From contig NZ_RPHB01000004.1 of NCBI RefSeq assembly GCF_019343195.1, forward strand, positions 1 to 64,000: a stretch of DNA of 64,000 bases, read 5' to 3'. Position 1 is the first letter of the stretch; every line of letters begins with the position of its first letter. This document shows, one piece after another, positions 1 to 14,745 of the stretch. This DNA is from Arthrospiribacter ruber (lineage in GTDB: Bacteria; Bacteroidota; Bacteroidia; Cytophagales; Cyclobacteriaceae). A program made the position numbers and the translations under genes. Below the pieces are notes generated by a model that made no database searches, was not told where the DNA came from, and saw only the letters and a list, made by a program, of their open reading frames with translations.

Positions 1-545
1 TTACAGCGGAAAGGAAAGGACAGAAATGGGTGTCAGACATCACTTATGTCAGGACTTTACAGGGTTGGTTATATCTGACTATTATCATGGATCTCTACGA
101 CAGAAAGATAATCGGATGGTCCATGAGCCATGGTATGGATGCAGAGTCAACTGTAATAGCAGCATTTAAAATGGCAATAAAGAACAGACCTGTCAATCCA
201 TTTGAACTGATCTTTCATTCTGACAGAGGTGTCCAATATGCCTGTAATCAATTCAGAGCTTATTTAGGCCGTTACAACATCAGCCAGAGTATGAGCAGAA
301 AAGGAAATTGCTGGGACAATGCTGTGGCTGAGAACTTCTTTAAAATAATCAAATCTGAAATGGTATATCATTCTTTATTTAAAACAATACCCGAGGCAAA
401 GGTTGCAATATTTGAATTTATAGAAATTTGGTACAACAAAAAAAGGAAGCATTCTTATTTGAAGTATATGACTCCTGAACAGTTTGAAAACTTAAATCAA
501 AAAATAGCAGCTTAATATGTTGTCCAGTTTTTTGTTGCAAATCCA
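1..545 (+). mobile_element. Right part of an IS3-family insertion sequence (IS150-like)
   Basis: The window opens inside the element. It contains the last 171 codons of an OrfB transposase and then about 30 bp of non-coding end. The proposed right terminus is the CA at 544-545, because IS3-family ends are TG...CA and because the reading frame of an interrupted host gene (GxxExxY) resumes at about 546. The left end and OrfA lie outside the window, so the terminal inverted repeats and target duplication cannot be checked. The boundary is inferred to within a few bases. Confidence 0.8.
3..515 (+). CDS. IS3-family transposase OrfB, C-terminal part (5' end outside the window)
   Basis: This is a DDE integrase-core transposase (rve domain) of the IS3/IS150 group, catalysing strand transfer of the element. 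The frame is open to the window edge and reads TAERKGQKWVSDITYVRT, so the internal GTG at position 30 is not the real start. All three catalytic residues are visible: Asp in SDITY, Asp in FHSDRGVQYA, and Glu in NCWDNAVAENFFK. The C-terminus (YNKKRKHSYLKYMTPEQFE) is typical and ends at a TAA. The remaining part looks intact, so the copy may be active if its 5' half is complete. In IS3 elements OrfB is normally made as an OrfAB fusion by -1 frameshifting, which cannot be seen here. Confidence 0.93.
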   Translation, partial: TAERKGQKWVSDITYVRTLQGWLYLTIIMDLYDRKIIGWSMSHGMDAESTVIAAFKMAIKNRPVNPFELIFHSDRGVQYACNQFRAYLGRYNISQSMSRKGNCWDNAVAENFFKIIKSEMVYHSLFKTIPEAKVAIFEFIEIWYNKKRKHSYLKYMTPEQFENLNQKIAA

Positions 546-825
546 CTATATGATCGTCAGTTAAAGAGGATACGCATTTTACCTTAAGAATAATCTTGTC
601 TTCCACCACGAAATCAGAATAAAATTTATGTGGAAGAAGTACACCCCTGAAATAAACTTCATACGGCTTTTCGCGCTTATAATAGATACCTTCCTGTCGA
701 AAAAGCAGTTCCAAAGCATCTTTATACACAATCTCCAAAAAACCATGTCCAAGTTCATTATGAACTTCCATGCATTTCCCAATGATTTGATAGGACTCTT
801 CTTTTTAGATTAAATTTGACTCCAT
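546..825 (-). pseudogene. GxxExxY-family gene (PDDEXK-like), broken by IS insertion and a nonsense codon
   Basis: The minus strand encodes KEESYQIIGKCMEVHNELGH, then GFLEIVYKDALELLFRQ, and later YSDFVVEDKIILKVK. This is the N-terminal two thirds of the GxxExxY family, usually about 125 aa. There are three lesions. (1) The likely start ATG at 823-825 is followed after six codons by an in-frame TAA (805-807); downstream the family match resumes in the same frame. (2) After CVSSLTDDHI the frame runs into the insertion sequence at about 545, so the Q-rich C-terminal motif is lost or lies beyond the element. (3) The usual ExK near this position (IIVELK type) reads LKVK, so the acidic residue is replaced by Lys. 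The gene is not expected to be functional. Its cellular role is not established even for intact members. Confidence 0.85.
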
Positions 826-850: not shown

Positions 851-902
851 GCCACTAATAACACTAATAAAAATATTAGTGCAAATCTGTGCCATTCGTG
901 GC
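851..902. repeat. Imperfect inverted repeat with about 10-nt periodicity upstream of the GxxExxY relic
   Basis: The outer ends read GCCACTAAT (851-859) and ATTCGTGGC (894-902), imperfect reverse complements. Inside is a perfect 8-bp stem, CACTAATA (862-869) and TATTAGTG (874-881), with a 4-nt loop. Between the ends the sequence steps in roughly 10-base units of the type TTAGTGCAAA, TCTGTGCCAT, TCGTGGCATC. It sits between the 5' end of the GxxExxY relic and the 3' end of the YdeI-like gene. It could act as a terminator-like hairpin, but the periodicity suggests a repeat family. Confidence 0.55.
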
Positions 903-909
903 ATCCCAT

Positions 910-1428
910 TCAGCTTCCCTTCAACTTTTCACCTTTGGCCGACAGTTCAGCTATCTGATCAATCCTAGCCATTCTCGTCTTTTCAGCTTTGGCTAATTTG
1001 ATCCATCGGAGTACGAAGCGTTTACTTGAATAATTGATGGCATAGAAAAATTCGGTAGCTTCGGGCTTCTTGTCCAAAGCTTCCTGTAAGTCCTCTGGCA
1101 CAATGAGCTTGTTCACATCATCCATAAAATCCCATAGACCATTTTGCTTGGAAAGCTCAATGGATTGAAAACCGGCCTCTTGCATTTTTCCTTCTTCAAT
1201 CAACTTGGCAGCTCTGTCTTTATAAGTCTTTGCCCAGTGTTCGACTTTTCGTGGTGAAATTAATTGCATGGTTCTGTGTTCATCCAAATGGAACAGATCC
1301 ACATCTAATACCCTTTCTATAAAATCCACTTTTGTGATTTCCGAAGCAGGCAGCTCGTAAATAGCTAAGAAAGAAGTGTTAAAAATCAACGGCTGTTGCT
1401 CAGCTGCTACTTTCAATTCTTCGGGCAA
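910..1428 (-). CDS. YdeI/OmpD-associated (OmdA-type) family protein with abnormal N-terminus
   Basis: From about residue 52 the protein follows the YdeI/OmdA family. It shows the SPRKVEHWAKTYKDRAAKLI block, then EEGKMQEAGFQSIELSKQNG, VPEDLQEALDKKPEATEFF, and RWIKLAKAEKTRMARI. The family's molecular function is poorly defined. It is linked to bacteriocin protection in some annotations. Full-length members are about 190-200 aa and begin with a tryptophan-rich segment and an ALCFGWID motif. Neither is present here, and the first 50 residues do not resemble the family. The only start in frame is a TTG (1426-1428) directly after an in-frame TGA at 1435-1437. An overlapping ATG at about 1438 leads only to a 12-codon peptide. 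The gene is either a 5'-damaged relic or a divergent short form; the relic reading fits the decayed neighbourhood. Confidence 0.6.
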   Translation of the reverse strand: MPEELKVAAEQQPLIFNTSFLAIYELPASEITKVDFIERVLDVDLFHLDEHRTMQLISPRKVEHWAKTYKDRAAKLIEEGKMQEAGFQSIELSKQNGLWDFMDDVNKLIVPEDLQEALDKKPEATEFFYAINYSSKRFVLRWIKLAKAEKTRMARIDQIAELSAKGEKLKGS

Positions 1429-1547
1429 TTTTATTCATTAAACACAAAAGAAAGTTTGATGTCCTGAATTAGAGTCTATTACAAATCTAACCAAGAAACG
1501 AATCTTAAACTGTTAAACCCCCAACAAGCTAAAAAATATCAGCATCC

Positions 1548-1934
1548 TTAATTAATCAACTCAAAATTTAGATAATCCTGCATTAATTTGAAGTGTTTAT
1601 CAAAAGTAAAAAGTGAAATTTTTTCCTGAATAACCTGTTGCAAGATGATCAAATCTGGAATGCCTACCTTATTTACCCCATTTTGAAGGTTCAGAACTTG
1701 ATATTTTCTTATCAGCGACCAATCAATGCTTAAAGGAATGGTTTCCAATTCTTGAAGGTTTTCTACAATGTCAAATTTGCCTTTATGTTCCAAAAAAGGT
1801 GATAATTCTGTTAAAATTAGCTCATTGGTGCAAACCAAGTCCTCTATGATCATTTGGTCAAGGAGTGGGACATTGCCCGACTTGAAATAATCAATCCACA
1901 CCGAACTATCCACCAAAACCCTATACCCCGACAT
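1548..1934 (-). CDS. vapC: VapC-like toxin, PIN-domain ribonuclease
   Basis: This is a type II toxin: a small cytoplasmic PIN-domain RNase held inactive by the upstream antitoxin. At 128 aa it has normal VapC length. The expected acidic residues are present: Asp in VDSSVWIDYF (residues 8-17), Glu in LILTEL (about 43), Asp in IPDLIILQQV (about 93), and Asp in FTFDKHFKLM (about 112). It starts one base after the antitoxin stop (TAG-T-ATG), so translation is probably coupled. The RNA target cannot be read from sequence. It appears intact, unlike several neighbours. Confidence 0.9.
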   Translation of the reverse strand: MSGYRVLVDSSVWIDYFKSGNVPLLDQMIIEDLVCTNELILTELSPFLEHKGKFDIVENLQELETIPLSIDWSLIRKYQVLNLQNGVNKVGIPDLIILQQVIQEKISLFTFDKHFKLMQDYLNFELIN

Positions 1935-1935
1935 A

Positions 1936-2127
1936 CTATCTATTTCTAAGCGAGTCTAAATCAATATCCAGATCAATTGTTCCTTTATGGGTGATTAAAC
2001 GCTTCCTTTTAATTCGTCCAATCTGTTCCTCCAAAGCTTCCTTTATTAATTGACTTTTTGTTTTAGCACCGGTAAGCTCCATCGCTTCCTTGATTAGCTT
2101 TTCAGGAATTTCTAATGTAGTTCTCAT
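1936..2127 (-). CDS. vapB: VapB-like antitoxin, ribbon-helix-helix
   Basis: This 63-aa protein begins MRTTLEIPEKLIKEAMELTG, the pattern of VapB-type antitoxins with an N-terminal ribbon-helix-helix DNA-binding arm (DUF2191-like). The basic stretch IKRKRLITHKG is followed by an acidic tail, DLDIDLDSLRNR, that would cover the PIN active site. It is the first gene of a two-gene operon, so the complex probably represses its own promoter in the 166-bp interval upstream (2128-2293), where no further gene is supported. Confidence 0.88.
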   Translation of the reverse strand: MRTTLEIPEKLIKEAMELTGAKTKSQLIKEALEEQIGRIKRKRLITHKGTIDLDIDLDSLRNR

Positions 2128-2293
2128 CGTTTTTTATGTATTAAATCATATTTATTTATGCTAATATACACGATTTTCCGATAGATCCAGTTCTCTCAAG
2201 AGTATGAAGAATTGGTTATTCGTCTACTTATTATTTCAGCCATGCTCTTTGGATATGGAATCGGCATTGATAAATAAGGCTTGTTAAAACATT

Positions 2294-3016
2294 TTAAACC
2301 CCTGAAATATCCCTGAATTTTACACTTTGCCTTTGGCTGAGGTCTATTTTTAGTCCATTGTTCATTTCTATCAATAAGGTACTATTGAAATAGGGCTCTA
2401 TTTTTTTGACATAATTCATATTGAAAATATACTGTCGGTTTGCCCTAAAAAACACACTGTCAGGTAAGCGGTTCTCCATGTAAATCAGAGATTTATGAAG
2501 AAGTGGTTTTTTATCCTCAAAAAATACTTTTACATAATTGCCCTCACTTTCCAATAAGAAAATATCGGATACAGGTACAAAGTAGCATTTCTCACCGTCT
2601 TTGATAAAGATTTTTTTGTCCAAGGTAAGTCGCTCTTCTTTGGGAGCCTTTTCTTGCTTCGAAATCCTCTTTTCCAATCGCTTGATGGCTTCTGCAAGTC
2701 TGTCTGGATTAACTGGTTTCAGCAGGTAATCCAAAGCATTCACTTCAAAGGCCTTGATGGCGTATTCATCATAAGCTGTCACAAAAATTACTTCAGGCAC
2801 CTCCTCCAGATTCCCCAGGAACTCAAAACCATTCATTCCCGGCATATTAATGTCCAAAAAAATAAGGTCAGGTTTGAGTTGATTGGCTTTTGCAAGGGCT
2901 TCGCTTGCTTTTTCTTCTGAGGAAATAAGCTCAATCTGAGGAAAAGCATTTAGCAGAACTTTCAGCTCGGCGATTGCCAAAGTTTCATCATCTATGATTT
3001 GTGCTTTGATTGTCAT
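2294..3016 (-). CDS. LytTR-family response regulator
   Basis: This two-component transcription regulator has a receiver domain (residues 1-120) with the acidic pair D9/D10, phosphoacceptor D55 in LIFLDINMPG, and Lys in YLLKPVNP. It is followed by a LytTR DNA-binding domain (about 133-236) containing LLESEGNYVKVFF and FFRANRQYIFNMNYVKKIEP. All receiver residues are intact. It is the last gene of a run of three signalling genes on this strand and overlaps the degenerate kinase by 4 nt (3013-3016). Its functional partner is therefore probably the intact kinase at 4097-5164. Likely targets are the envelope and export genes transcribed in the same direction upstream, but no LytTR operator was identified. 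Confidence 0.93.
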   Translation of the reverse strand: MTIKAQIIDDETLAIAELKVLLNAFPQIELISSEEKASEALAKANQLKPDLIFLDINMPGMNGFEFLGNLEEVPEVIFVTAYDEYAIKAFEVNALDYLLKPVNPDRLAEAIKRLEKRISKQEKAPKEERLTLDKKIFIKDGEKCYFVPVSDIFLLESEGNYVKVFFEDKKPLLHKSLIYMENRLPDSVFFRANRQYIFNMNYVKKIEPYFNSTLLIEMNNGLKIDLSQRQSVKFRDISGV

Positions 3017-4110
3017 GGTTGTGATTGATTTGGTATACTCAAAATTGCATTCATTTGATTTTGTAGATTGCCATGAAAAACCAAGGATGCTGCTTCTCCA
3101 TAAATTTTTTCCAGCCGAAGCTGTAAATTCTCCAGAGAGGCATTTGCCATTTTCCTTATGGCGGAATTCTTATCATAATTCAGTCGTAACTCTACTTTCC
3201 TTTCAAGGATCTCACCACTTAACCGGATTTCTCCTCCATCTTCCAAGGTTTCAACACCATAGCGTATGGCATTCTCCATCAGATTTAGGATAGAACCTGT
3301 TGGAACCCTAAGTTCCATGAATTCTTCTCCAAGTTCAATGGTAAAGGAAAGCTGATCCCCTAATCGGATTTTTTCCAAATCGAGATACTTATGAAGCTCG
3401 TTGAGCTCTTCTTCCAGGCTTACAAGTGTATTTTTTTCATAGTTTAAGGAATAGCGAAGCAACTCGCTGAGCTTCAATATGCTGTCCCTTGCTTGATCTT
3501 TGTCCAATAATACCAAGGCCTGAATACTGCTCAGGGATTGAAACAAGAAAGAGGGATTGAGCTGTGTTTTAAGGAGTTCTAGCTCAGTGGTTTGGGCATT
3601 AAGTTGTGCCACCAAAGTCTCCTCCAAAATCTCAGTGTTGCGGATAAGAATGTGATAGAGGTAATAAATGGTAATCCAAACCATCACATATCTTGCAATA
3701 TTCAATAACTGAGGTCCCATGCTGCTGAGCAATTGACCCACTTCCATATTCAAAATAGAACTTAAACCTCTAATGGATAATAGTCTGGCAATGATAACCA
3801 TAACCAAACTAATCAATACAATATCCAACAATGCTTTACTCCAGATTTTTGGGAGTCCTTGTGAGAACGTGTCAGGGGAAATAAAAAATGTTTTTTATGC
3901 GTGTGTTGTAAGGATACCAATTATGGGAAATATACCGAAAGAATACAGGTAACTCCATTGAAAATCTCCATTGATAAAAAAAGTAAAATTGAAAATTTCT
4001 ATCCCCATTAATGAAAACCAACCAATAAATTGCATCAGCCAATAAAGTCGGGTTTTATTCCACTTTGTCTGAATTTTAAGGTCCCTATGGTTATTGTCAA
4101 CTTTGAGCAT
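3013..4110 (-). pseudogene. Degenerate LytS/YehU-type sensor kinase with an in-frame TAA
   Basis: This is a paralogue of the adjacent intact kinase. The N-terminal part (start ATG 4108-4110, MLKVDNNHRDLK) reads TRLYWLMQFIGWFSLMGIEI and stops at TAA 3895-3897. The same frame then continues as KTFFISPDTFSQGLPKIWSK and onward to 3013. Alignment with the paralogue places the stop at its Tyr62 codon, so one base change explains it. The catalytic core has also changed. The phosphoacceptor motif NPHFLFN is NPSFLFQ (His to Ser, codon 3550-3552), and the G-box GIGLKNI reads NASLENL, while the N-box MENAIRYGV is kept. A downstream restart would give a 272-aa protein without the first membrane segments. 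It may once have been a pseudokinase partner of the intact kinase; it is now probably decaying. Confidence 0.87.
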
Positions 4111-5164
4111 GGATAGGGTAGGAGATGGTGGTGAGCACACTGTTTTCTAGATGGTTTTGTAAATGAAGGTTAGCTGTTTTTCCAAACAGGTGTACCAACC
4201 TTCCCCTAATATTCTTCAGACCAATTCCCTTAAGATTCTCGCCTTTAAGCCTGCCACTATTTATTACCTGGATCAAAAGGGTGTTTTCACGTGATTCCAC
4301 TTGAATTTTTATTTCTCCTCCATCCGGCAGTTGGGTAATGCCATGTTTGATAGCATTTTCGGTCAATGTCAAAACCAAAGCCGGTGGCACTTCCAAGCCT
4401 TCTGCATCTCGTGCAACTTCAATTTCATAACTGAGCCTGCTTCCGAATCTTATTTTTTCCAGTTCGAGGTACTTTTCAACTTTATAGATCTCCTCGGACA
4501 TTTGGATCAGCGGTGTTTTTTCATATCTCAGAGAAAATTGAAGCAATTCGCTGAGCTTGATAATGGCATCTTTGGCCAGCTGCCCGTCTATCAAAACAAG
4601 CGCTTTGATGCTGTTTAACGCATTGAATAGAAAATGGGGGTTGAGCTGTGTCTTGAGCAGTTCGAGTTCGGTAGAAGTCAGTAAACTCTCCATTTCAAGT
4701 TTTTCCTGAAGGATGTTTCGGTTGCGCTCCAAAATCTTATACATGTAATAAATGATAATCCATACCACGATGTATCTCCCTTGATTGAGAATCCGGCCTA
4801 ATATTTCTATGCTTACTGCAAGGATTTGATCTGTCATCAATTCCCAACTTTGAATGATGGATGGTCCAATGATAATTAAAGTAATGATCAGACTGATATT
4901 GAAAGTATCTGCAAGCCCCTTGACCCAGATCGCTCTAACCGGTTTTTCAAAAGTGGATTTTCTGATAAAGAGTATTTTGTAAAAATGGCTGACCAATAAT
5001 CCATAAAGGGCTTGGATACCAAAAGCACTGACATATTCCCATTGGAAACTTCCAACAAGGACAAAAGTGTAATTGATAGTTTCTACTAAGACCAATGAAA
5101 ACCAACCCAGAACTTGACAAAGCCAGTAAATTTGGTTTTTGGAAATTCTTTGTTTCATGATCAT
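4097..5164 (-). CDS. LytS/YehU-type sensor histidine kinase (His_kinase domain)
   Basis: This 355-aa membrane sensor kinase has about four hydrophobic segments in residues 12-145, a linker coiled coil (about 145-170), and a His_kinase domain with phosphoacceptor H177 in LNPHFLFNALNSIKAL. The ATPase part contains the N-box LTENAIKHGI and G-box GIGLKNIRGRL. It would autophosphorylate and pass phosphate to the LytTR regulator at 2294-3016. The stop overlaps the start of the degenerate paralogue by 14 nt. Two starts are possible, ATG 5162-5164 or ATG 5156-5158 two codons later. It appears fully functional; the signal sensed is unknown. Confidence 0.92.
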   Translation of the reverse strand: MIMKQRISKNQIYWLCQVLGWFSLVLVETINYTFVLVGSFQWEYVSAFGIQALYGLLVSHFYKILFIRKSTFEKPVRAIWVKGLADTFNISLIITLIIIGPSIIQSWELMTDQILAVSIEILGRILNQGRYIVVWIIIYYMYKILERNRNILQEKLEMESLLTSTELELLKTQLNPHFLFNALNSIKALVLIDGQLAKDAIIKLSELLQFSLRYEKTPLIQMSEEIYKVEKYLELEKIRFGSRLSYEIEVARDAEGLEVPPALVLTLTENAIKHGITQLPDGGEIKIQVESRENTLLIQVINSGRLKGENLKGIGLKNIRGRLVHLFGKTANLHLQNHLENSVLTTISYPIHAQS

Positions 5165-5311
5165 AAACCTTTAATTGTAAAGCAGTATTCGGTTGGATTT
5201 GTTTATTGAAGAATTTTGATCTTTATGTTAGAGTAATATCTGTATAAAATTTTGTTAGATAGATTTTTATAATGTTATGAATTCATGAATTACATTAAAT
5301 TTTCTTTGGCT

Positions 5312-5827
5312 TTAAGATGTCAAGAGTAAAAAGGTAGTCGTGAAATCAGCATCTTCCTGATAATGTTGGAGAAAAAGGGACATACCCAAACCCAAAAGAA
5401 AAAGGAGTTTGTCTGTAAAAACTTCTTTTTGGTGTAAAACCATTTTAGGTCGTGCCTTCCCTTTTTCATATGTTTCTAGCTGAAAACTGACTAAATCTTC
5501 ATGATACCTTAAGTCATAAATGATGATTTGAAGATTTGACATATTCCTAAAATGGCATTCATATCGAGCACCGTCTTGGAATCTGATTTTACCCTTGGAA
5601 GACCAAAAGCCAAATTTCATTTCAAGTATTTTTTCATTCCTTTCAGTTTCAATATACCAAGTTGGATTCCAAGATCCTTTTTCTGAGATTTTGAAGGACC
5701 TGTTCTCCAAGAATAGAGGCCTCTGCCCTTTGACTTTTTTGCCAAGGCTCAGTAAAGATTCTTCCCCATTGTAGAGTTGCCAAATATCCTTTTCCTTGTT
5801 CCATTTCAAATTGCTCGTTATGGCCAT
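5312..5827 (-). CDS. Conserved-looking hypothetical protein, 171 aa, beta-rich
   Basis: I do not recognise this gene securely. It has no signal peptide or clear membrane segment. The middle is rich in short aromatic beta strands (GSWNPTWYIETE, KFGFWSSKGKIRFQDGARYE, YDLRYHEDLVSFQLETYEKG). The end is hydrophobic (LLFLLGLGMSLFLQHY). The strand pattern recalls a tubby/LURP-one-like barrel, but that is only an impression. It sits in the same orientation between the sensor kinase and the DUF5686 gene, with 147 bp and 139 bp gaps, so co-regulation is possible but it need not be in one operon. The start ATG at 5825-5827 is the only good one. Confidence 0.6.
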   Translation of the reverse strand: MAITSNLKWNKEKDIWQLYNGEESLLSLGKKVKGQRPLFLENRSFKISEKGSWNPTWYIETERNEKILEMKFGFWSSKGKIRFQDGARYECHFRNMSNLQIIIYDLRYHEDLVSFQLETYEKGKARPKMVLHQKEVFTDKLLFLLGLGMSLFLQHYQEDADFTTTFLLLTS

Positions 5828-5966
5828 ATCATTGTTTTTATTTGAATTGGGTTAAAATTTAAGATGTGTTTTAAATCCTTTTTTTGTCAAATATTGAAAA
5901 TGAAACAGGAAAATGAAGGTTTAAATACAGGAGTGAAGAAAATGGGTTATGTGTAATGATGCGGGG

Positions 5967-8429
5967 TTAAAATGCCGTGGTCAATGATAAATTGATCAAA
6001 AAGTTTTCATGAATTACAGGGTTGGCATATGCTCCCCAGCGATAAAATGCCCCAATACCAATCCCCTGATACCCAAAACCGGATTTGTATTTGACCAGGT
6101 TCTGTAGTTCTATACCTGATTCTAAATAACCGCGTTCCATGGTTTTGAATCCGAGATTCTCTGCTAGGGATGGATCTAGAAGGCTGCCAATTGCAAAGCT
6201 TTGAATCAAATTCAATTGAGGAGCAAAACCTACCCAGCCTGCTTTGCGATCAAACAATGGCCCTGTTAAGTGTGAATATGTGGACTGTATGGCCCTGTCT
6301 GATAAAAATTCATAGATCCGCATGGTCTGTAAATAGCCTGGCAAAGAGATGGATATTTCCTGTTCTTGAGGTCGTATGCCGAACCCTGTATTCAAATAAG
6401 AAGGAGGTAATGATTCTCCCCAAGCTCCCATTCCGGAGAATAGAAACCGATTCAAAGAAACCCCTTTCTTCCATTCATGCTGCACTTTCAGTGCTATTTT
6501 CCAAAAATCAACATTGCTGCCCAATATTTCAGGAATTGCTTTGGAAATATGCAAATTGAAGATTGGGTAAGAAGGAGGGCCGGGAAGAAAACCTGAACCT
6601 ATTTTGGAGAGTTTTTCATGGGCATTGTATCTAATATTCAGTCCAACTTCTGCTGCCCGAAAAGAGGAAAGGTTACCCTCTTCTGTGAAAGCTGAATGAT
6701 CGACCCATAGTGGAACCCTATCTTCAAGACTGCTAGCGATGGATACTTTCACATTGCGAAGTGGTATTTGGGAAAATGAAAATGAAAAACGCTCTACCTG
6801 ATCCATTCTTTCGGCTAGAAATTCACGGAATATATCACTGGACCTGCTAAAGCTGTTTGATTTGATGAAAGGTACATGACCGATTTCAACAATGTCATGG
6901 CTATAATAGAACATCAACCGACTATCCTTTCTGTTTAAAAACAATGTCTCAATCCCTCCTCCATATTTCCATGCCCGGTCTCTAAATCCATATCGAAAAT
7001 AACCTTCAGTCCGAAACCATTCCGAAAGCTTTTGATTAGAGGAAATCCCCAGTCCAAGGGCAAAACCTTCATGCTGATTGAGTCTGAATAATCTGTTGGG
7101 CAGCAAATCAACAGGTCCAAGCGGTATTCTGCCTAAACTCAGTTGAGTCATCACTTGGGAAAAAGTATTTAGGCGTTCAAGGGTTTTATCATCCAATTCT
7201 TCGAAGCGTTTGTAGGTAAGAGATTCAGCCTCTGAAAGACTGTCCCGCCTATAATCCTCCATTGGGAAATCCTCGTTTTGAATATCAAAGACCATCGCAA
7301 CAGGGCTGATTGTTCGGGTTTTCAAATCATGATTTATTCTAACATCAGAAATAAAATTCTGATTGATCAGCTTGAGCGGGCGTCCTTCAATGTCAAAATC
7401 TGCCATCAAATATTTGCTATTTATCTGTTCAGGAAACCAATGTTTTCCATCCCATTTATTTTTCTGCTGAAGCTCAAATTGGAGGGTTCCTCCATTTTCC
7501 AAAGACTTGAATACCATATTTTCCAGGGCAAACAAATTGGAAGACACGGCCATAATTCCCTGGCCAAGCAAATACCCTTTGCCTTTTTGAGCTTGGAAAC
7601 TTATGATGTAGGAAGTTCCAGATTCATTCTGGATGCTGTCTTCCAAAAAGTAGTCATATTTTCTCAACCCCTCTTTAGATAAAGGATTAAGATAAGGGAT
7701 GTCAAAAACTATGATATGGTCTTCATATAATGAAAAAGGCTGAAAAGTACTGGAAACCAAGGCGATGACAGGGCTTTTAATACCTGACATTTTAGATGAT
7801 TTTATGGTTTCGTTTCGGTTACCGGGCTTTTTAAAAGTGATTTCAGAAAAACTTTCGGAGATAAAAATATGACCACCTTTAAGTTCAGAATCAATTTTTA
7901 CTGAAAGGGTATCGCCTATTTCAGCTTCTTTTAAAGAAAAAACCAGTTTGTTATAAGCGTTGTATTGATAGGCATTGAGATTTTCAGGGTCATTTATTTT
8001 TTTATTGTCTATTGCGGATCTGATGATTTTCAAAGCAGGATTTTCCCCGGCAAGAAATATCATTTCAGCCATTTCAATTTGCTTGGGAAAAAGGTATATA
8101 CTGCCTGATGCATCAATGGATCTGATTGGAAGCAGTTGGATTTTAAACCCTACATGGGAAATGACCAGGCTGTCAGTTTCTGAATTTGGACTTAACTTGA
8201 ATTCACCTCTGATATCAGTTACAGTGCCTTGATTTTCAAAACCTTTGAAATATACATGGGCAAATGGTACAGGCTCTTTGGTTTCAGAATTCAAAACCCT
8301 TCCTTTGGTAAAATCTGTTCTCTCCTGAGCCAAAATTGGAGAAAGTAATCCAAAAAAAGCTTGAAAAAAGACTGCCAGAAAAATGGGCAGTCTTTTATAT
8401 GTACAGGAAGGATTTGGTTTGAGCACCAT
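5967..8429 (-). CDS. DUF5686 outer-membrane protein with N-terminal CarboxypepD_reg-like domain
   Basis: This 820-aa exported protein has a signal segment (about 12-34, LPIFLAVFFQAFFGLLSPILA). A carboxypeptidase-regulatory-like beta-sandwich follows (about 40-120, VLNSETKEPVPFAHVYFKG). A long DUF5686 region then runs to a C-terminal Phe (LINLSLTTAF), as expected of an outer-membrane barrel. This architecture is common in Bacteroidota and its function is unknown. It probably acts in the outer membrane or at its inner face. The gene lies 52 bp downstream of the ABC permease/M1 peptidase gene in the same direction, suggesting a shared envelope role. Confidence 0.85.
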   Translation of the reverse strand: MVLKPNPSCTYKRLPIFLAVFFQAFFGLLSPILAQERTDFTKGRVLNSETKEPVPFAHVYFKGFENQGTVTDIRGEFKLSPNSETDSLVISHVGFKIQLLPIRSIDASGSIYLFPKQIEMAEMIFLAGENPALKIIRSAIDNKKINDPENLNAYQYNAYNKLVFSLKEAEIGDTLSVKIDSELKGGHIFISESFSEITFKKPGNRNETIKSSKMSGIKSPVIALVSSTFQPFSLYEDHIIVFDIPYLNPLSKEGLRKYDYFLEDSIQNESGTSYIISFQAQKGKGYLLGQGIMAVSSNLFALENMVFKSLENGGTLQFELQQKNKWDGKHWFPEQINSKYLMADFDIEGRPLKLINQNFISDVRINHDLKTRTISPVAMVFDIQNEDFPMEDYRRDSLSEAESLTYKRFEELDDKTLERLNTFSQVMTQLSLGRIPLGPVDLLPNRLFRLNQHEGFALGLGISSNQKLSEWFRTEGYFRYGFRDRAWKYGGGIETLFLNRKDSRLMFYYSHDIVEIGHVPFIKSNSFSRSSDIFREFLAERMDQVERFSFSFSQIPLRNVKVSIASSLEDRVPLWVDHSAFTEEGNLSSFRAAEVGLNIRYNAHEKLSKIGSGFLPGPPSYPIFNLHISKAIPEILGSNVDFWKIALKVQHEWKKGVSLNRFLFSGMGAWGESLPPSYLNTGFGIRPQEQEISISLPGYLQTMRIYEFLSDRAIQSTYSHLTGPLFDRKAGWVGFAPQLNLIQSFAIGSLLDPSLAENLGFKTMERGYLESGIELQNLVKYKSGFGYQGIGIGAFYRWGAYANPVIHENFLINLSLTTAF

Positions 8430-8481
8430 ACGATTTATTTTCCTGATTTAGGAATCATTTCCCACTAGGTTGTATACCAAA

Positions 8482-11400
8482 TTAATTGAGGTTGACCTTC
8501 TTGATATTGTCCCCAGGAACTCTATCGATTAGATAATTGTAAGGATCAATACCCACGGTTTGAGGTTTGGATTTGGTTCTGAAAGTAAAACTGTTTTCTT
8601 CCTTATCAATTTTTAATCTTTCGTAAATCAAAGGCTCACCCAAAAGTTTTTTATTATCTGTATAACCAAATACACCTACATCAATATAGTCTGCAATGGG
8701 AACAGCACTTTCTTTACCCAATGAATCTGATCTGAACTTTTTAGATTCTGTGGTAAATTCAACTATATATTCTTCTCCTTCTTGGGTAATGTTAGCATCA
8801 ACTACCCGGTTGGAAAATAGTGTGATATTCAGGAACAAATCATCGATGACATATTGTAGACTGTCAGGTGTATTGGCCCGAAATGCCCTGACGGCATCCA
8901 TGGAAGTGGGGTAGGGGGCTCCTTGATAACCAAACTCAGCTATCAGATTTTTCAATGCCGCATTGACCTGATCTTCTCCTATCATTTCTTTCAGGTAGTA
9001 CATGGCCACAGAACCTTTTTCATAGTGAATATAGCCCTGCTGCTCAGTTTCAGCCAATGGCCGTTCTGCTTCATACTCACTTCCGCGGCCTCTTAGATAG
9101 CCATCCATTTCATATCTGAGGAATTTCCGCATTTTATCCCTGCCATATTCCTGTTCCATGACCATCAGAGCTGAATACTGCGTAATGGCCTCCATCAATA
9201 ATTCCGCCCCACGCATCTTGGCAGCAATCACCTGATGCGCCCAATACTGATGGGCAGTTTCATGCGCAGTTACATAAAATACCAGATCAATATCGTCCTC
9301 GGTGACATTCCTGAGGTCTGTGATAAATCCCAGTCTTTCGCTGTATGGCATGGTTCCAGGAAATGATTGGGCAAAACCTGCATACCTAGGAAATTCAACA
9401 ATCCTCAGCTGACTGTGGTGATATGGTCCAAAATGCTTTGTATAATAGTCCAAAGATTTTTTCATGGCATTGGCAAAGTTCGGAATGTTGTATTCATGAC
9501 CCTTGGTGTAATATACTTCGATATCTACATCCTGCCATTGCTGACGTTCGACTTGGTAATCTGCCGAAAGGAAAGAAGTGAAATGAACGGATGGAGCTTC
9601 TTGCTGATACTCAAAATACCTTCTCCCATTTTCTTCCCATTCCCTGACAAGCTTGCCTGGACTTATGGCAATCTGACCAGCCTCAGTACCAATTATCGAC
9701 TTCACCTCAATCCAATCACTGCTGTTGGTGATATAATGGTAATTTCTAGCCTCTAGGTTGTTTTCATCCAAAGAAGGCATACGTTTTCTTTCGGGTAGGT
9801 CTTTTTTTCTTCGCTTATTTCTATCCCTTAATTCATTATCAGGCTGGTATCCGATATCAGGAACCATTTCCATGGAATAAAAGAAGCTGCCATTTTCTAC
9901 AATTCTGGTATTTGAGACCCTGTTTTCAAAGCCTTTTGTACGCTTTTCTCCAGTTATGAAAACTTCGAGTTGATCACCGGGAAGCATTGGGTTAGAAAGC
10001 TCGTAAATTCTATACCCCAACTCCGTATCATTTTCTTTAATTTCTGCCCCTTCAATAATTAAGCTTAAGGGGTTCTTGGTGTCTGAAATGGAAAAATGCA
10101 ATTCCGTAAGAGGTACATTTGATTTATTCTCCAAGATGCCTTTGACCTCAAATTCCAAATCCCTCTCAGATGGATAAAGCTCAATATGATAATCTATGCT
10201 GATCCATTTGGGTTGTGGTATACCTTCATATAACTTGTAGGTATTTTCATAATCTACCTGTTTTCTTTCTACCTGATCACTGGATTCATAGTCATTTAAG
10301 ACCAGTGTATTGTAATATACATTGAAGCCGACCAAAACGAATATGACAAAAATAGAGGTAATCAGGATTTTGCTACTTTTCAATCTGGTGGTAGCTTCCT
10401 GCCACCTGCTTTTCAGGTCTAGGGATTTACCTCTGGAAAGAAAAAGGTAGCTTACGTAAATCAATATCATGGCAAATGCTGCCCAGTAGAGTTGAAACCA
10501 GAAAGTAGCAGTTTGCCAAGGACCAAAACCATTTAGGTCAGAGTAAGTTCCTCTCGGTACCGATCCATAACTAACCATCAAGGTTTCTACTTCCAAAGCC
10601 TGCCAAACAAAATCTATGGCAATGATAAATACTACAAAGGCAAAATAGGCGATATATCGGTTATTGATCAGATAGTGGAAGAAAACAGCCAATATGGTCA
10701 AATAAGTAAAGAACAGAAACTCGTTGACCAAAAGTGATCTGAAATATACTCCAAGCTCAAAATTGAAGTAGCTATAGGAAGCCTGGGCAATCACACCAAT
10801 CAATATCGTAATGACAAGGATCAGTTGCACACTAAGTAGGAGTGCAGTGATCTTGGAAGAAAGGAAAAGCCCGGTGGCAGTCGGGGTTGCATCTTTGATT
10901 TCATCCAGCTTAACATCCCTGTCCCGCCAGACCAATACACCAGAATAGAAAATAACAATACCTATCAGAAATAATGAGAAGGCTCCTTGTATGCTTTCAA
11001 CTACATCATAGGTTAAAGGATAATTACTACTCCCATACCTTCCTGTAAATAGTGTCAGGGAGGTGACTAAATTGATGATTCCAATGATCAAAATGATAAT
11101 AAAAGTCTGGTTTTTGACAATGGCTTTCAGTTCAAAGGCCGTCAACTTTAAAAACACCCTCAAAGAAAATGTTGTGGCAGGTTTTTGTTGGATAGCTGGC
11201 ATCCTAAGAGAGATAGGATTTTGCAATTCTGGTTGATCAACATTCTTTTTCTTCTTGGCTTTTTCCTTTTTCTGTTGAAAGGAAAACCTACTGTAAAGCA
11301 CCAGAAGAAAAAGTGTGGCAATTCCCATCCAAAAAAGTCTGTTCCACAAGAAATCTCCCTGCAATCCCGCTGCTGTGGTATTCAATTCTTCTACAGTAGC

Positions 11401-12063
11401 ATATTTGGTAGCAAGATTCAAAGGAGAAAAGCCGAATGGGTCAAGTAGATTTGCGAGCCATTCTTTTTCTATATCGGCAATAAACCTTCCAGATACAGCA
11501 TATAATACCAGAAGCCCCATGGCTCCGATATAAGAAACCATATTGTTTCGGAATGTAATTGCTAAAGCAAAAGTAAGAACGCCAATAATGAAAGTATTGG
11601 GAATACCAAAAGTCAACATTCCCTGGATATGGCCTTCCCAGTACAAAGGGCCGAAACGATTAGGATCTGCCCATGGCATCAAAGGCCCAATCAATGCACC
11701 AGCACTGATGCCCAACAAAGGAATCAGGGCGATCAAATAAGCACCTAAAAACTTCCCGAAGAAATAGGATGATTTTTTGATAGGGTATGAAAATAAAATA
11801 CCTGAAAAGCCTGAGTCAATATCTCTATTGGCAGTAGCATTCATAAATGCTGTTGTCATTAATAATGCAATCAGGGACATCACCCCATAGTATTGCTGTA
11901 TCACAGATGGGGCATTCTTCTTGACACTTGTAGTAGCTCCACCGATCTGTATTTCATCACTGCTGACAGCTCCAAACACCAAAAGACCAATGATCAGAAA
12001 AAATATCCAGAGCATGGGGCTTTTGATCCAAGTCTTAATTTCTTTTTTTAGGAAAACAAACAT
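8482..12063 (-). CDS. ABC-2 type permease fused to an M1-family metallopeptidase domain
   Basis: This 1193-aa fusion has residues 1-570 with two sets of about six membrane segments of the ABC-2 permease type, starting MFVFLKKEIKTWIKSPMLWI. Residues of about 600-1193 form a periplasmic M1 aminopeptidase-like domain. The zinc site is complete: HETAHQYWAHQV (about 930) with the second-helix Glu in LLMEAITQYSAL. The GAMEN exopeptidase motif is not seen. The corresponding stretch reads GFAQSFPGTMPYSERLGFIT. It presumably works with the ATPase encoded 16 bp upstream (12080-12952) to move or process peptides or to mechanically remodel envelope proteins; the substrate is unknown. The fusion type is known in Bacteroidota, so it is not an assembly artefact. 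Confidence 0.92.
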   Translation of the reverse strand: MFVFLKKEIKTWIKSPMLWIFFLIIGLLVFGAVSSDEIQIGGATTSVKKNAPSVIQQYYGVMSLIALLMTTAFMNATANRDIDSGFSGILFSYPIKKSSYFFGKFLGAYLIALIPLLGISAGALIGPLMPWADPNRFGPLYWEGHIQGMLTFGIPNTFIIGVLTFALAITFRNNMVSYIGAMGLLVLYAVSGRFIADIEKEWLANLLDPFGFSPLNLATKYATVEELNTTAAGLQGDFLWNRLFWMGIATLFLLVLYSRFSFQQKKEKAKKKKNVDQPELQNPISLRMPAIQQKPATTFSLRVFLKLTAFELKAIVKNQTFIIILIIGIINLVTSLTLFTGRYGSSNYPLTYDVVESIQGAFSLFLIGIVIFYSGVLVWRDRDVKLDEIKDATPTATGLFLSSKITALLLSVQLILVITILIGVIAQASYSYFNFELGVYFRSLLVNEFLFFTYLTILAVFFHYLINNRYIAYFAFVVFIIAIDFVWQALEVETLMVSYGSVPRGTYSDLNGFGPWQTATFWFQLYWAAFAMILIYVSYLFLSRGKSLDLKSRWQEATTRLKSSKILITSIFVIFVLVGFNVYYNTLVLNDYESSDQVERKQVDYENTYKLYEGIPQPKWISIDYHIELYPSERDLEFEVKGILENKSNVPLTELHFSISDTKNPLSLIIEGAEIKENDTELGYRIYELSNPMLPGDQLEVFITGEKRTKGFENRVSNTRIVENGSFFYSMEMVPDIGYQPDNELRDRNKRRKKDLPERKRMPSLDENNLEARNYHYITNSSDWIEVKSIIGTEAGQIAISPGKLVREWEENGRRYFEYQQEAPSVHFTSFLSADYQVERQQWQDVDIEVYYTKGHEYNIPNFANAMKKSLDYYTKHFGPYHHSQLRIVEFPRYAGFAQSFPGTMPYSERLGFITDLRNVTEDDIDLVFYVTAHETAHQYWAHQVIAAKMRGAELLMEAITQYSALMVMEQEYGRDKMRKFLRYEMDGYLRGRGSEYEAERPLAETEQQGYIHYEKGSVAMYYLKEMIGEDQVNAALKNLIAEFGYQGAPYPTSMDAVRAFRANTPDSLQYVIDDLFLNITLFSNRVVDANITQEGEEYIVEFTTESKKFRSDSLGKESAVPIADYIDVGVFGYTDNKKLLGEPLIYERLKIDKEENSFTFRTKSKPQTVGIDPYNYLIDRVPGDNIKKVNLN

Positions 12064-12079
12064 AATCAGGAGTTTAGGA

Positions 12080-12952
12080 TTAAATCAATTGGTTGATCTT
12101 AGCAAAAAAAACATCTTCCAGATTGGCATCAGCTGGAGTAAAACCTTCCTCGGGTGCTTGCTGGGCAAAAACATGTATCAACGGTTTGCCACCTACTAAC
12201 TTGTCACTGATCACATCATGCTTTTCTCTGTAATCCGGCAGGTTATTCTTTTCTACACTTTTTTCATAAACTTTCCCCTGGATCAGGTCAAGTGCATCAT
12301 CCACTGTTCCATTATAGAGCATTTCACCTTGGTTCATAATGGCCATTTGGGTACACAGCTCCCTGACATCCTGTACAATATGGGTAGAAAGGATCAAAAT
12401 GGCTTCTTCACCGATTTCACTGAGCAGGTTGTAAAAACGGTTTCGTTCCCCTGGATCCAAACCTGCCGTAGGCTCATCCACAATGATCAACTTTGGATTT
12501 CCAATCAGGCATTGTGCAATGCCAAAGCGTTGACGCATACCGCCGGAATAGGATTTGACAGCTTTCTTTCTATGTTCATATAAATTAACTTTTTGTAAAA
12601 GGTACGCTACCAACTCTTTTCTCTCCTTACTTACTGTGACTCCTTTGAGTAAAGCTAGATGATCTAATAGCTCCACCGCTGAACTTCTTGGGTATACCCC
12701 AAATTCCTGGGGAAGATAGCCTAAAATCCCCCTAACCTTATCTTTCTCTTTGAGAACATCTATTTCCCCCAACCTGACTTCACCACTATCGGCTTCTTGT
12801 AAGGTTGCCAGTGTTCGCATCAAAGAAGATTTTCCGGCACCATTGGGACCAAGTAGTCCAAACATTCCTTTTCCAATGGTGAGGCTTACATCCTTCAGGG
12901 CGTGCACTCCATTTGCATATTGTTTGTTAAGGTTGAGAATTTCAAGTTTCAT
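12080..12952 (-). CDS. ABC transporter ATP-binding protein
   Basis: This cytoplasmic ATPase energises the fused permease/peptidase encoded just downstream. The nucleotide-binding domain holds Walker A (GLLGPNGAGKSSLMRTLA, about 31-48), the Q-loop (GYLPQEFGVYP), the signature YSGGMRQRFGIAQ, Walker B (LIIVDEPTAGLDP) and the switch His (LSTHIVQDV). The C-terminal 80 residues are an accessory tail ending NLEDVFFAKINQLI. The start is placed at ATG 12950-12952 (MKLEILNLNKQYANG), the family start. An upstream in-frame ATG at 12988 would add 12 unrelated residues. It is the first gene of the co-directional block ending at the LytTR regulator. Confidence 0.94.
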   Translation of the reverse strand: MKLEILNLNKQYANGVHALKDVSLTIGKGMFGLLGPNGAGKSSLMRTLATLQEADSGEVRLGEIDVLKEKDKVRGILGYLPQEFGVYPRSSAVELLDHLALLKGVTVSKERKELVAYLLQKVNLYEHRKKAVKSYSGGMRQRFGIAQCLIGNPKLIIVDEPTAGLDPGERNRFYNLLSEIGEEAILILSTHIVQDVRELCTQMAIMNQGEMLYNGTVDDALDLIQGKVYEKSVEKNNLPDYREKHDVISDKLVGGKPLIHVFAQQAPEEGFTPADANLEDVFFAKINQLI

Positions 12953-13052
12953 AGATTGAAGTTTTTGGTTAATGGAAATGGGGAGCAACTTAGATCAAGT
13001 TTGATTGCTCACTGTAAAATAGTTGATTTAGTTAATTAAAATGCTAGTAGAC

Positions 13053-13927
13053 TTAGAAAATAATTGGTTCTACCTTATAGCCCTGATCTTTGAGCAATTG
13101 AATGACACCTGTTTCGGTCGGAAGATGTGCAGCACCCACAGCTACAAATGTTGAGGCTCGCTTGATCAATTCTTCTATCTAAACTATCCAACTCTTGTTT
13201 CTTTCAGCCAATAAAAGGTCGGCATACTCTTGAAATAGAGGAGAGTCCATTACAAGCCCATACATCCTGTCAATATCCTGGCTGGTGTAAGCATCCATTA
13301 AATCAAGGAATTCCTCTGTCATATTTTTTCAGTAATGGACTTGACAATTTCATCGATTTGAAATTTATGTGGGATTTTGTCAAAAATGGACATTTGAAAC
13401 TCGATGGTTTCCAATCCGACTACTTGTTTGCTATCTTTATTCATGGTTTCCGAAAGGAAATTTTCATAGGATACAGCTGAAGAACAAGGCAAACTACCTT
13501 GGATTAATAGGGAAGAGATAACAAAGGGCTTTAAAATTCCTAATTGGTCAATACCTGCTCCGAATTTTGCTGTGAAATACTCATTTACAGTGTCAATTTG
13601 CTCAGGGTTTAAGTCTTCTTTGATGTTTCTCATCTCTTGATTTACGGATAGCATCTGCATATTAGCCATCATTTCAGGGTCAGTCACATCGATTTCTAAG
13701 GCCAGCTGATCGCTTGCTTTTAAGGCAGCTTCAATTTGTTCATTCATCAAAAAGTTGTCTTCACAAATAACGTGGATTGTTCCAAACAGATAGGAGGGAC
13801 TTTCCAAACCATTTCCTGAGATTTTCCAAAGAAGAGATTTTTCTTTGATTACAGTTCCATATGCATCATAGATACCCACAAAGGATATCGTGAATAGTAA
13901 AGTGAAGAATCTTAATAGTGTTTTCAT
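13053..13927 (-). pseudogene. TraB/GumN-family gene with a frameshift and a nonsense codon
   Basis: The first 202 codons encode a signal peptide and the TraB/GumN core (LLWKISGNGLESPSYLFGTI, LALEIDV, VVGLETIEFQMSIFDKI). The frame then ends at TGA 13319-13321. The family continues in another frame immediately after a run of six A (T-run 13324-13329 on the plus strand): MTEEFLDLMDAYTSQDIDRM, then LLLAERNKSWIV, a TAG at 13179-13181, IEELIKRASTFVAVGAAHLP, and the natural stop at 13053-13055. One extra A in the run would restore the first break, and a Lys codon would replace the TAG. Two independent lesions argue against a sequencing slip. The diagnostic VGAAHLP motif is cut off, so the product should be inactive. 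Intact members resemble Tiki-type membrane-associated metalloproteases. Confidence 0.9.
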
Positions 13928-14337
13928 GTGTCTATTTTTGTTTTTCAGTTGTCATCCAGATTGGTCGGGACAGGCTATAGAATCTCGCGTGCCTAATAGT
14001 CATCACTATATGTGTCGCTTATGTCATGCTCGATTTCTTGATGTTATCTTTTAACTCCATGCAAAGATGAAAAGCTTAAAACTCAAAATATGGGGAGATT
14101 ACATCAATAAAGATAATGGGAGATAAGTGATGAAAAAGGGTATTCCTAAGTAAGGATTTGATAGAATTGCATACCATCTCTGCCTGGCGATTTGACAGGT
14201 TCTTCATTGGGCTCACTCGAAGTATAAGCATACATCTTAATTTGCCCGCTTTGAATCTGGCATACCTGAGGTTTTTTCAGCAAGCCCTACTTAATCGATG
14301 GGTAATGTTGAATAGCCGTATTTCTTAGGCATTGATT
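13928..14337. other. Gap without a supported gene; holds a 47-codon orphan coding-like fragment
   Basis: On the minus strand the frame 14146-14289 reads KKPQVCQIQSGQIKMYAY then TSSEPNEEPVKSPGRDGMQF and ends YQILT at TAG 14146-14148. It is opened by an upstream TAG and has no start at a sensible place, so it looks like the 3' remnant of a lost gene, whose family I do not recognise. The rest of the gap (13928-14145) shows no ORF, hairpin or promoter I can support. It lies between two broken genes and is probably decayed DNA. Confidence 0.4.
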
Positions 14338-14745
14338 TTAGAATTCCTTTAGCACTAAATAAGTTGTATAAATAATATAGGTCAGCATAAGTGCACCCGA
14401 TTCCCATCGATCTACACTTTTCTTTTGCCCGGTAAGCATTGTGGTCAAAAGAAAGAATGTGCCTCCAATAAGCATGTATAAATCTAAATTAAATTTTGGA
14501 TTATACTCAAATGGTTGAATGATGCCACTTATGGATAGGATCAATAGTATATTAAATATATTGGAGCCTATAATATTGACAACCAATTCAGGAGCTGAAG
14601 TTCCGAAAGCAACTATGGTCAAACCAATTATCAGATCAGAAACTCTATATTTTTTAGCTAAGGAAGAAGCTCCGTCAACCAGCCAACTGGCTCCAAAAAT
14701 AAGGGAGACAAAACCTAGAATTACAAGTGCAAACTCTACAATCAT
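14338..14745 (-). pseudogene. Half-size CaCA (Na+/Ca2+ exchanger, YrbG-like) gene with internal deletion
   Basis: Intact YrbG-type exchangers have about 310-320 aa in two inverted halves, each with a GTSxPE alpha motif followed by GNxxGSNxxN. This ORF has 135 aa. It starts like the N-half (FGASWLVDGASSLAKKYRVS, then IGLTIVAFGTSAPELVV). At about 14574-14578 it jumps straight to NIIGSNIFNILLILSISG and finishes with the C-terminal half's last helices (RWESGALMLTYIIYTTYLVL). About 175 residues are missing, in frame. A simple origin is recombination between the two alpha repeats. Whether the short product folds, for example as a dimer, is unknown. I treat it as a probable pseudogene. Confidence 0.75.

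Follow-up and report, generated by a model that had tools for sequence, protein, structure and literature searches.

What does a kinase gene represent when it lies beside its intact paralogue, lacks key catalytic residues and is interrupted by one stop codon: a redundant copy in decay, or the remains of a non-catalytic partner that was functional until recently? The question is raised by a locus of Arthrospiribacter ruber (contig NZ_RPHB01000004.1), found in the 64,000-nucleotide stretch that was analysed here as a whole (the window). The reading that we regard as probable is that the paralogue (PK) was an auxiliary pseudo-histidine kinase of its intact neighbour (HK1), following a logic similar to that of RocA or DivL, and that it is now truncated in the window assembly.

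The locus is a minus-strand operon in which the LytS-type kinase HK1 is followed by PK and by a LytTR response regulator (Table 1). The ATG of PK (at 4110) is located inside the end of the HK1 gene, whose stop ends at 4097, and the 3' end of PK shares an ATGA overlap (3016-3013) with the start of the regulator; these two overlaps tie the three genes into a single compact operon. HK1 contains all the expected boxes (H-box NPHFLF, N-box ENAIKHG and G-box GIGLKN), and both kinases score as Pfam His_kinase PF06580, with PK reaching 77.6 bits (gathering cut-off 25.2).

Table 1. Location of the kinase operon, of the altered sites in PK and of the surrounding block (window coordinates).
Feature	Position	Strand	Basis or remark
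Operon-bearing block, 92-96% identity to Indibacter alkaliphilus LW1	869..13354	.	alignment to Indibacter contig 165718-178590
LytTR-type response regulator, 240 aa	2294..3016	-	PF00072 + PF04397 (Pfam)
PK, pseudokinase paralogue, 365 codons, single internal stop	3013..4110	-	PF06580; 40% identical to HK1
Downstream open frame from TTG, 272 aa, TM3-TM4, DHp-like + CA-like	3013..3831	-	restart hypothetical
Approximate G-box (ATP-lid) region of the HK1 alignment	3121..3165	-	no G-box in PK
Ser codon replacing the phosphoacceptor His, NPSFLFQ (HK1: NPHFLFN)	3550..3552	-	alignment with HK1
In-frame TAA, PK codon 72	3895..3897	-	Tyr codon in both full-length orthologues
Upstream PK fragment, 71 aa, TM1-TM2	3895..4110	-	ORF reading
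HK1, intact LytS-type sensor kinase, 355 aa	4097..5164	-	predicted TM helices, PF06580

The original prediction, that the PK frame is open apart from one TAA at the position of Tyr62 of HK1, that the phosphoacceptor His is replaced by Ser and that the G-box is lost, was borne out at each point by the frame reading and by the alignment with HK1. A frame of this length with at most one stop would be expected by chance with a probability of about 1e-10 (at this base composition). The H-box of PK reads LKTQLNPSFLFQSL, the HK1 counterpart being LKTQLNPHFLFNAL, and the GxGLxN motif is missing from the window PK and from both of its orthologues. In the N-box, the core Asn is kept (MENAI) and the subsequent KHG has become RYG, with ENA being invariant in all nine aligned proteins (9/9). 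PK can thus be assigned to the LytS type by its domain score, its N-box Asn and its neighbouring LytTR regulator, and departs from it in the phosphoacceptor and in the G-box. These two departures do not carry the same weight, since in the LytS family missing G-boxes alone are no proof of inactivity: AlgZ, like PK, has none (PMC4064291), and the Ser or Gln at the phosphoacceptor position is therefore the stronger argument for PK being inactive.

Orthologues of PK were sought in 391 genomes of the family Cyclobacteriaceae, and only two of full length were found. The best match was that of Indibacter alkaliphilus LW1 (94% aa identity, no stop) and the next that of a Cyclobacteriaceae MAG (56%); beyond these, no match in the 391 genomes exceeded 46%, and a GTDB-wide scan of named genomes yielded no further close PK. 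The Indibacter protein has the same Ser and the MAG protein has Gln in place of His; neither has a G-box, and where the window PK is interrupted both read a Tyr codon; among the genomes compared, the TAA occurs in the window alone. The order HK1-PK-regulator is common to the window, Indibacter and the MAG, the latter also with the ATGA overlap. With one exception (genome G071, see below), the other subclade genomes whose locus was read have a single His-bearing kinase beside the regulator. Additionally, a census of the DNA pattern for QLNP[not His]FLF in the 391 genomes gave 61 matches, and when each of these loci was inspected (61/61), a substituted frame belonging to this kinase family was present only in the window and in Indibacter; the census is a partial one, because the pattern is blind to the Gln and KPEF forms.

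These data establish an order of events. In the tree, the PKs of the window, Indibacter and the MAG group together (100/99), with longer branches than those of the separate HK1 clade (100/99), and this support of about 100% for each clade places the PK/HK1 duplication before the split between the Indibacter-type and MAG lineages. The His was most likely also lost before that split, as suggested by its absence from both PK branches. Since Ser and Gln orthologues without a G-box and without a stop exist, the catalytic loss came before the stop. An orthologue of full length that shares the Ser and is free of the TAA, as had been predicted, is found in Indibacter, in the same operon, and the finding that would have spoken for simple decay, an orthologue that still has the His and the G-box, did not turn up.

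The closeness of the window and Indibacter loci has to be read in its genomic context, as the operon lies within a block of ~12.5 kb which resembles Indibacter far more than the rest of the genome does. Over the next stretch of backbone that could be aligned (window 15908-42372), identity to Indibacter falls to 68-75%, and rpoB is 81.7% identical at the nucleotide and 96.3% at the amino acid level. Because the block is far closer to Indibacter than the backbone, the operon must have moved horizontally, in a recent exchange; within the block, identity per 500 bases ranges from 90 to 99.6%, the mosaic to be expected from several recombination events. The PK alleles being closer than the genomes, the dN/dS values between them cover the time since the alleles parted.

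Between the window and Indibacter, dN/dS was 0.20 for PK (bootstrap 0.11-0.35), 0.10 for HK1 (0.05-0.20) and 0.04 for the regulator. The value for PK, obtained from the comparison of the pair that had been proposed as a check, is well under 1 and indicates that the catalytically dead gene was under constraint, although the N/S difference between PK and HK1 is not significant (Fisher p 0.15). Downstream of the stop, the codons differ by 21 nonsynonymous and 25 synonymous changes, where ~79% nonsynonymous would be expected under neutrality (p ~9e-7). With a substituted phosphoacceptor and with selection acting on it, as seen from the full-length Ser orthologue and from its dN/dS, PK corresponds to a pseudo-histidine kinase. 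The claim that the core residues changed while the gene was still coding agrees with this ratio and with the full-length Ser and Gln orthologues.

The constraint also has a regional pattern. Within PK, dN/dS was ~0.44 in the CA-like part and 0.11-0.15 in the rest, a contrast that is not significant alone (Fisher p 0.09). The Indibacter-MAG identities were 62% for PK and 71% for HK1 in TM1-2, 62% for both in TM3-4, 73% and 87% in DHp, and 35% and 52% in CA; the membrane and helical-dimer part of PK has thus been best kept, and the catalytic part lost. When the differences were polarised with the MAG, three missense changes and six silent ones, as well as the stop, could be placed on the window branch of PK, with 12 nonsynonymous changes left unassigned; the regulator has 4 nonsynonymous against 17 synonymous changes on that branch, showing no relaxation. 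The few PK changes and the unrelaxed regulator suggest that the stop is probably young, with change counts too small for a date: the window branch is too short to tell whether the constraint on PK has ended, and a pairwise dN/dS cannot date the stop. Of the two parts of the original prediction, that a non-catalytic partner had existed and that it was lost recently, the first is supported by the constraint on a dead gene (the Indibacter orthologue and the dN/dS), and the second is likely, not proven; the loss of function in the window organism, as well as the age of the stop, is what we infer from these comparisons.

Other explanations of the locus have to be weighed against this evidence. It is unlikely that a redundant tandem copy simply lost catalysis and has been drifting to a pseudogene everywhere, never being functional once dead. 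The poor conservation of the CA domain, with its higher dN/dS in the Indibacter pair, and the longer branches of the PK clade would be in line with such decay, but PK has stayed full length in two separate lineages despite about half of its residues having changed, the same core sites are altered in both, and the low dN/dS over the whole gene (and lower still outside CA), together with TM3-4 segments conserved as in HK1, is not what drift would leave. Quite improbable, in our view, is that PK still works in the window organism, either as a split protein or by translation restarting behind the stop, which would yield a TM1-2 peptide and a TM3-4/DHp/CA product. The open frame from the TTG at 3831 could give such a product, TM domains alone being enough in RocA (PMC6635533), and the regulator, lying in the ATGA overlap and unrelaxed, implies that translation reaches it or starts anew; however, the regulator may have a start of its own, and relaxation may not yet be visible if the stop is very young.

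The stop itself could be an error of sequencing or of the consensus, or else a variant that is rare in the culture, with PK whole in the species. It differs by one base from the Tyr codon of the relatives, lies beside runs of A and T, and is seen in the single genome of the genus that was compared; but it is a substitution and not an indel in a run, and the assembly has 20 contigs (5.36 Mb, 100% complete, 0.25% contamination), so that we give this explanation little credence. Least credible of all is an active PK, phosphorylated on another residue (Ser) or in trans within mixed HK1-PK dimers: the ENA core of the N-box is indeed kept in all PKs, but PK has no G-box, the mechanism as known depends on His, and the acceptor position differs between the orthologues (Ser or Gln), which means that there is no conserved acceptor.

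Under the preferred reading, of an auxiliary pseudo-histidine kinase, PK would have originated from duplication of a LytS-type kinase inside the operon, before the Indibacter-type and MAG lineages split, would have lost its phosphoacceptor His and ATP-lid G-box while staying under purifying selection, and would have been retained as a membrane-bound non-catalytic partner of HK1. Kinases of this kind are dimers. The most likely mode of action would be mixed HK1-PK dimers, or higher contacts, through the TM and DHp-like helices, and in this way PK may have tuned how far HK1 acts as kinase or as phosphatase toward the LytTR regulator that both share. A recent nonsense change would then have cut PK after TM2 in the window organism, with HK1 and the regulator left intact; what remains would be a fragment of 71 residues and, possibly, a protein made from a restart. 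Duplicates of homodimers are known to form mixed dimers commonly, as seen in yeast (PMC6711710). The model of the Indibacter PK, which is of moderate confidence (pLDDT 76, pTM 0.48) and uninformative on dimers, begins with long helices compatible with the TM segments, which lead into a DHp-like hairpin and then a CA-like domain of the alpha/beta type; in a fold search against solved structures, the GanS kinase domain and further histidine kinases came closest, DivL (4q20) being at rank 13.

Several known systems share part of this logic. The best parallel is RocA of group A Streptococcus, a membrane-bound non-catalytic kinase homologue which, as proposed for PK, serves an intact two-component kinase (it binds CovS/CsrS), whose TM domains suffice to modulate the partner kinase system (PMC6635533), and which, like the window PK, has natural loss alleles, whole lineages having lost it (PMC7028121, PMC6635533). 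The two differ in that RocA is a separate accessory gene and not a demonstrated duplicate of its partner, whereas PK is a LytS-type tandem duplicate in the operon, and in that RocA binds its partner, while the PK-HK1 contact is a proposal from sequence. DivL of Caulobacter (Tyr for His) likewise combines a substituted phosphoacceptor with a kept kinase fold and modulates another kinase (PMC5361649), but it is a PAS-based cell-cycle hub which reads the phosphorylation state of a regulator and is not an operon duplicate of its partner. In the ChrS pseudokinase of Corynebacterium glutamicum, a dead kinase acts via a paralogous kinase (PMC9491836), as PK would, although that case was evolved in the laboratory by a frameshift in the CA domain, with the His kept. 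Closer in family are LytS, BtsS (YehU), YpdA and AlgZ, which have PF06580, several TM segments and a LytTR partner, as HK1 and PK do, but which, unlike PK, keep the H-box His. Substituted phosphoacceptors occur in ~1% of sequenced histidine kinases, few of which have been studied (PMC5361649), and a literature search for LytTR pseudokinases, with subscription papers mostly outside its coverage, found none. PK would thus be a modest addition to the known idea of a non-catalytic partner of a bacterial two-component sensor, in a case where the dead kinase, the live duplicate and the regulator are overlapping genes of one operon. The single-kinase form in close relatives, the intact dead copy in one genome and the broken copy in another make up a natural series, convenient for asking how a dead partner affects a two-component system.

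A second dead kinase was found in G071, a genome of another genus, where three kinases precede the regulator and the middle one (L068:5966-7030) reads KPEFLFK, with Glu for His and no G-box. In the tree, its sister, with weak support (73/97), is the kinase upstream of it, which favours an independent origin; a grouping of the four PKs in one clade was, however, not rejected (p 0.33), and one or two origins are both compatible with the data. A wider reading, that tandem LytS operons of the Cyclobacteriaceae have made dead partner kinases repeatedly (Ser/Gln in one clade, Glu in the three-kinase array), and that these act as heterodimer sensors built into the system, which would be retuned when one is lost or gained, is at present a tentative one.

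Some minor observations were made around the operon. Upstream of it lies a 171-aa gene (5312-5827) without a Pfam match, which occupies the same upstream place in Indibacter, the MAG and G071 and is a possible functional partner of the kinase system. Besides this gene and the operon, the block contains genes for a PIN protein, a DUF5686 protein, an ABC permease-M1 peptidase fusion and an ABC ATPase (named from its sequence reading). At the end of the block and just beyond it (13319-14745) lie two seemingly shortened genes, likewise named by sequence reading: a TraB/GumN-like one (13319-13927) and a cation/Ca exchanger-like one (14338-14745). At the other end, a YdeI/OmdA-like gene (910-1428) is without its usual 5' part (the Indibacter gene encodes 192 aa), and its aligned pieces overlap by 11 bases (1277-1287), as if ~390 bases had been deleted between short repeats. 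In window 1-771, the contig starts inside an IS3-type transposase (30-515), the end of which abuts an apparently truncated gene for a GxxExxY-type protein (418-771).
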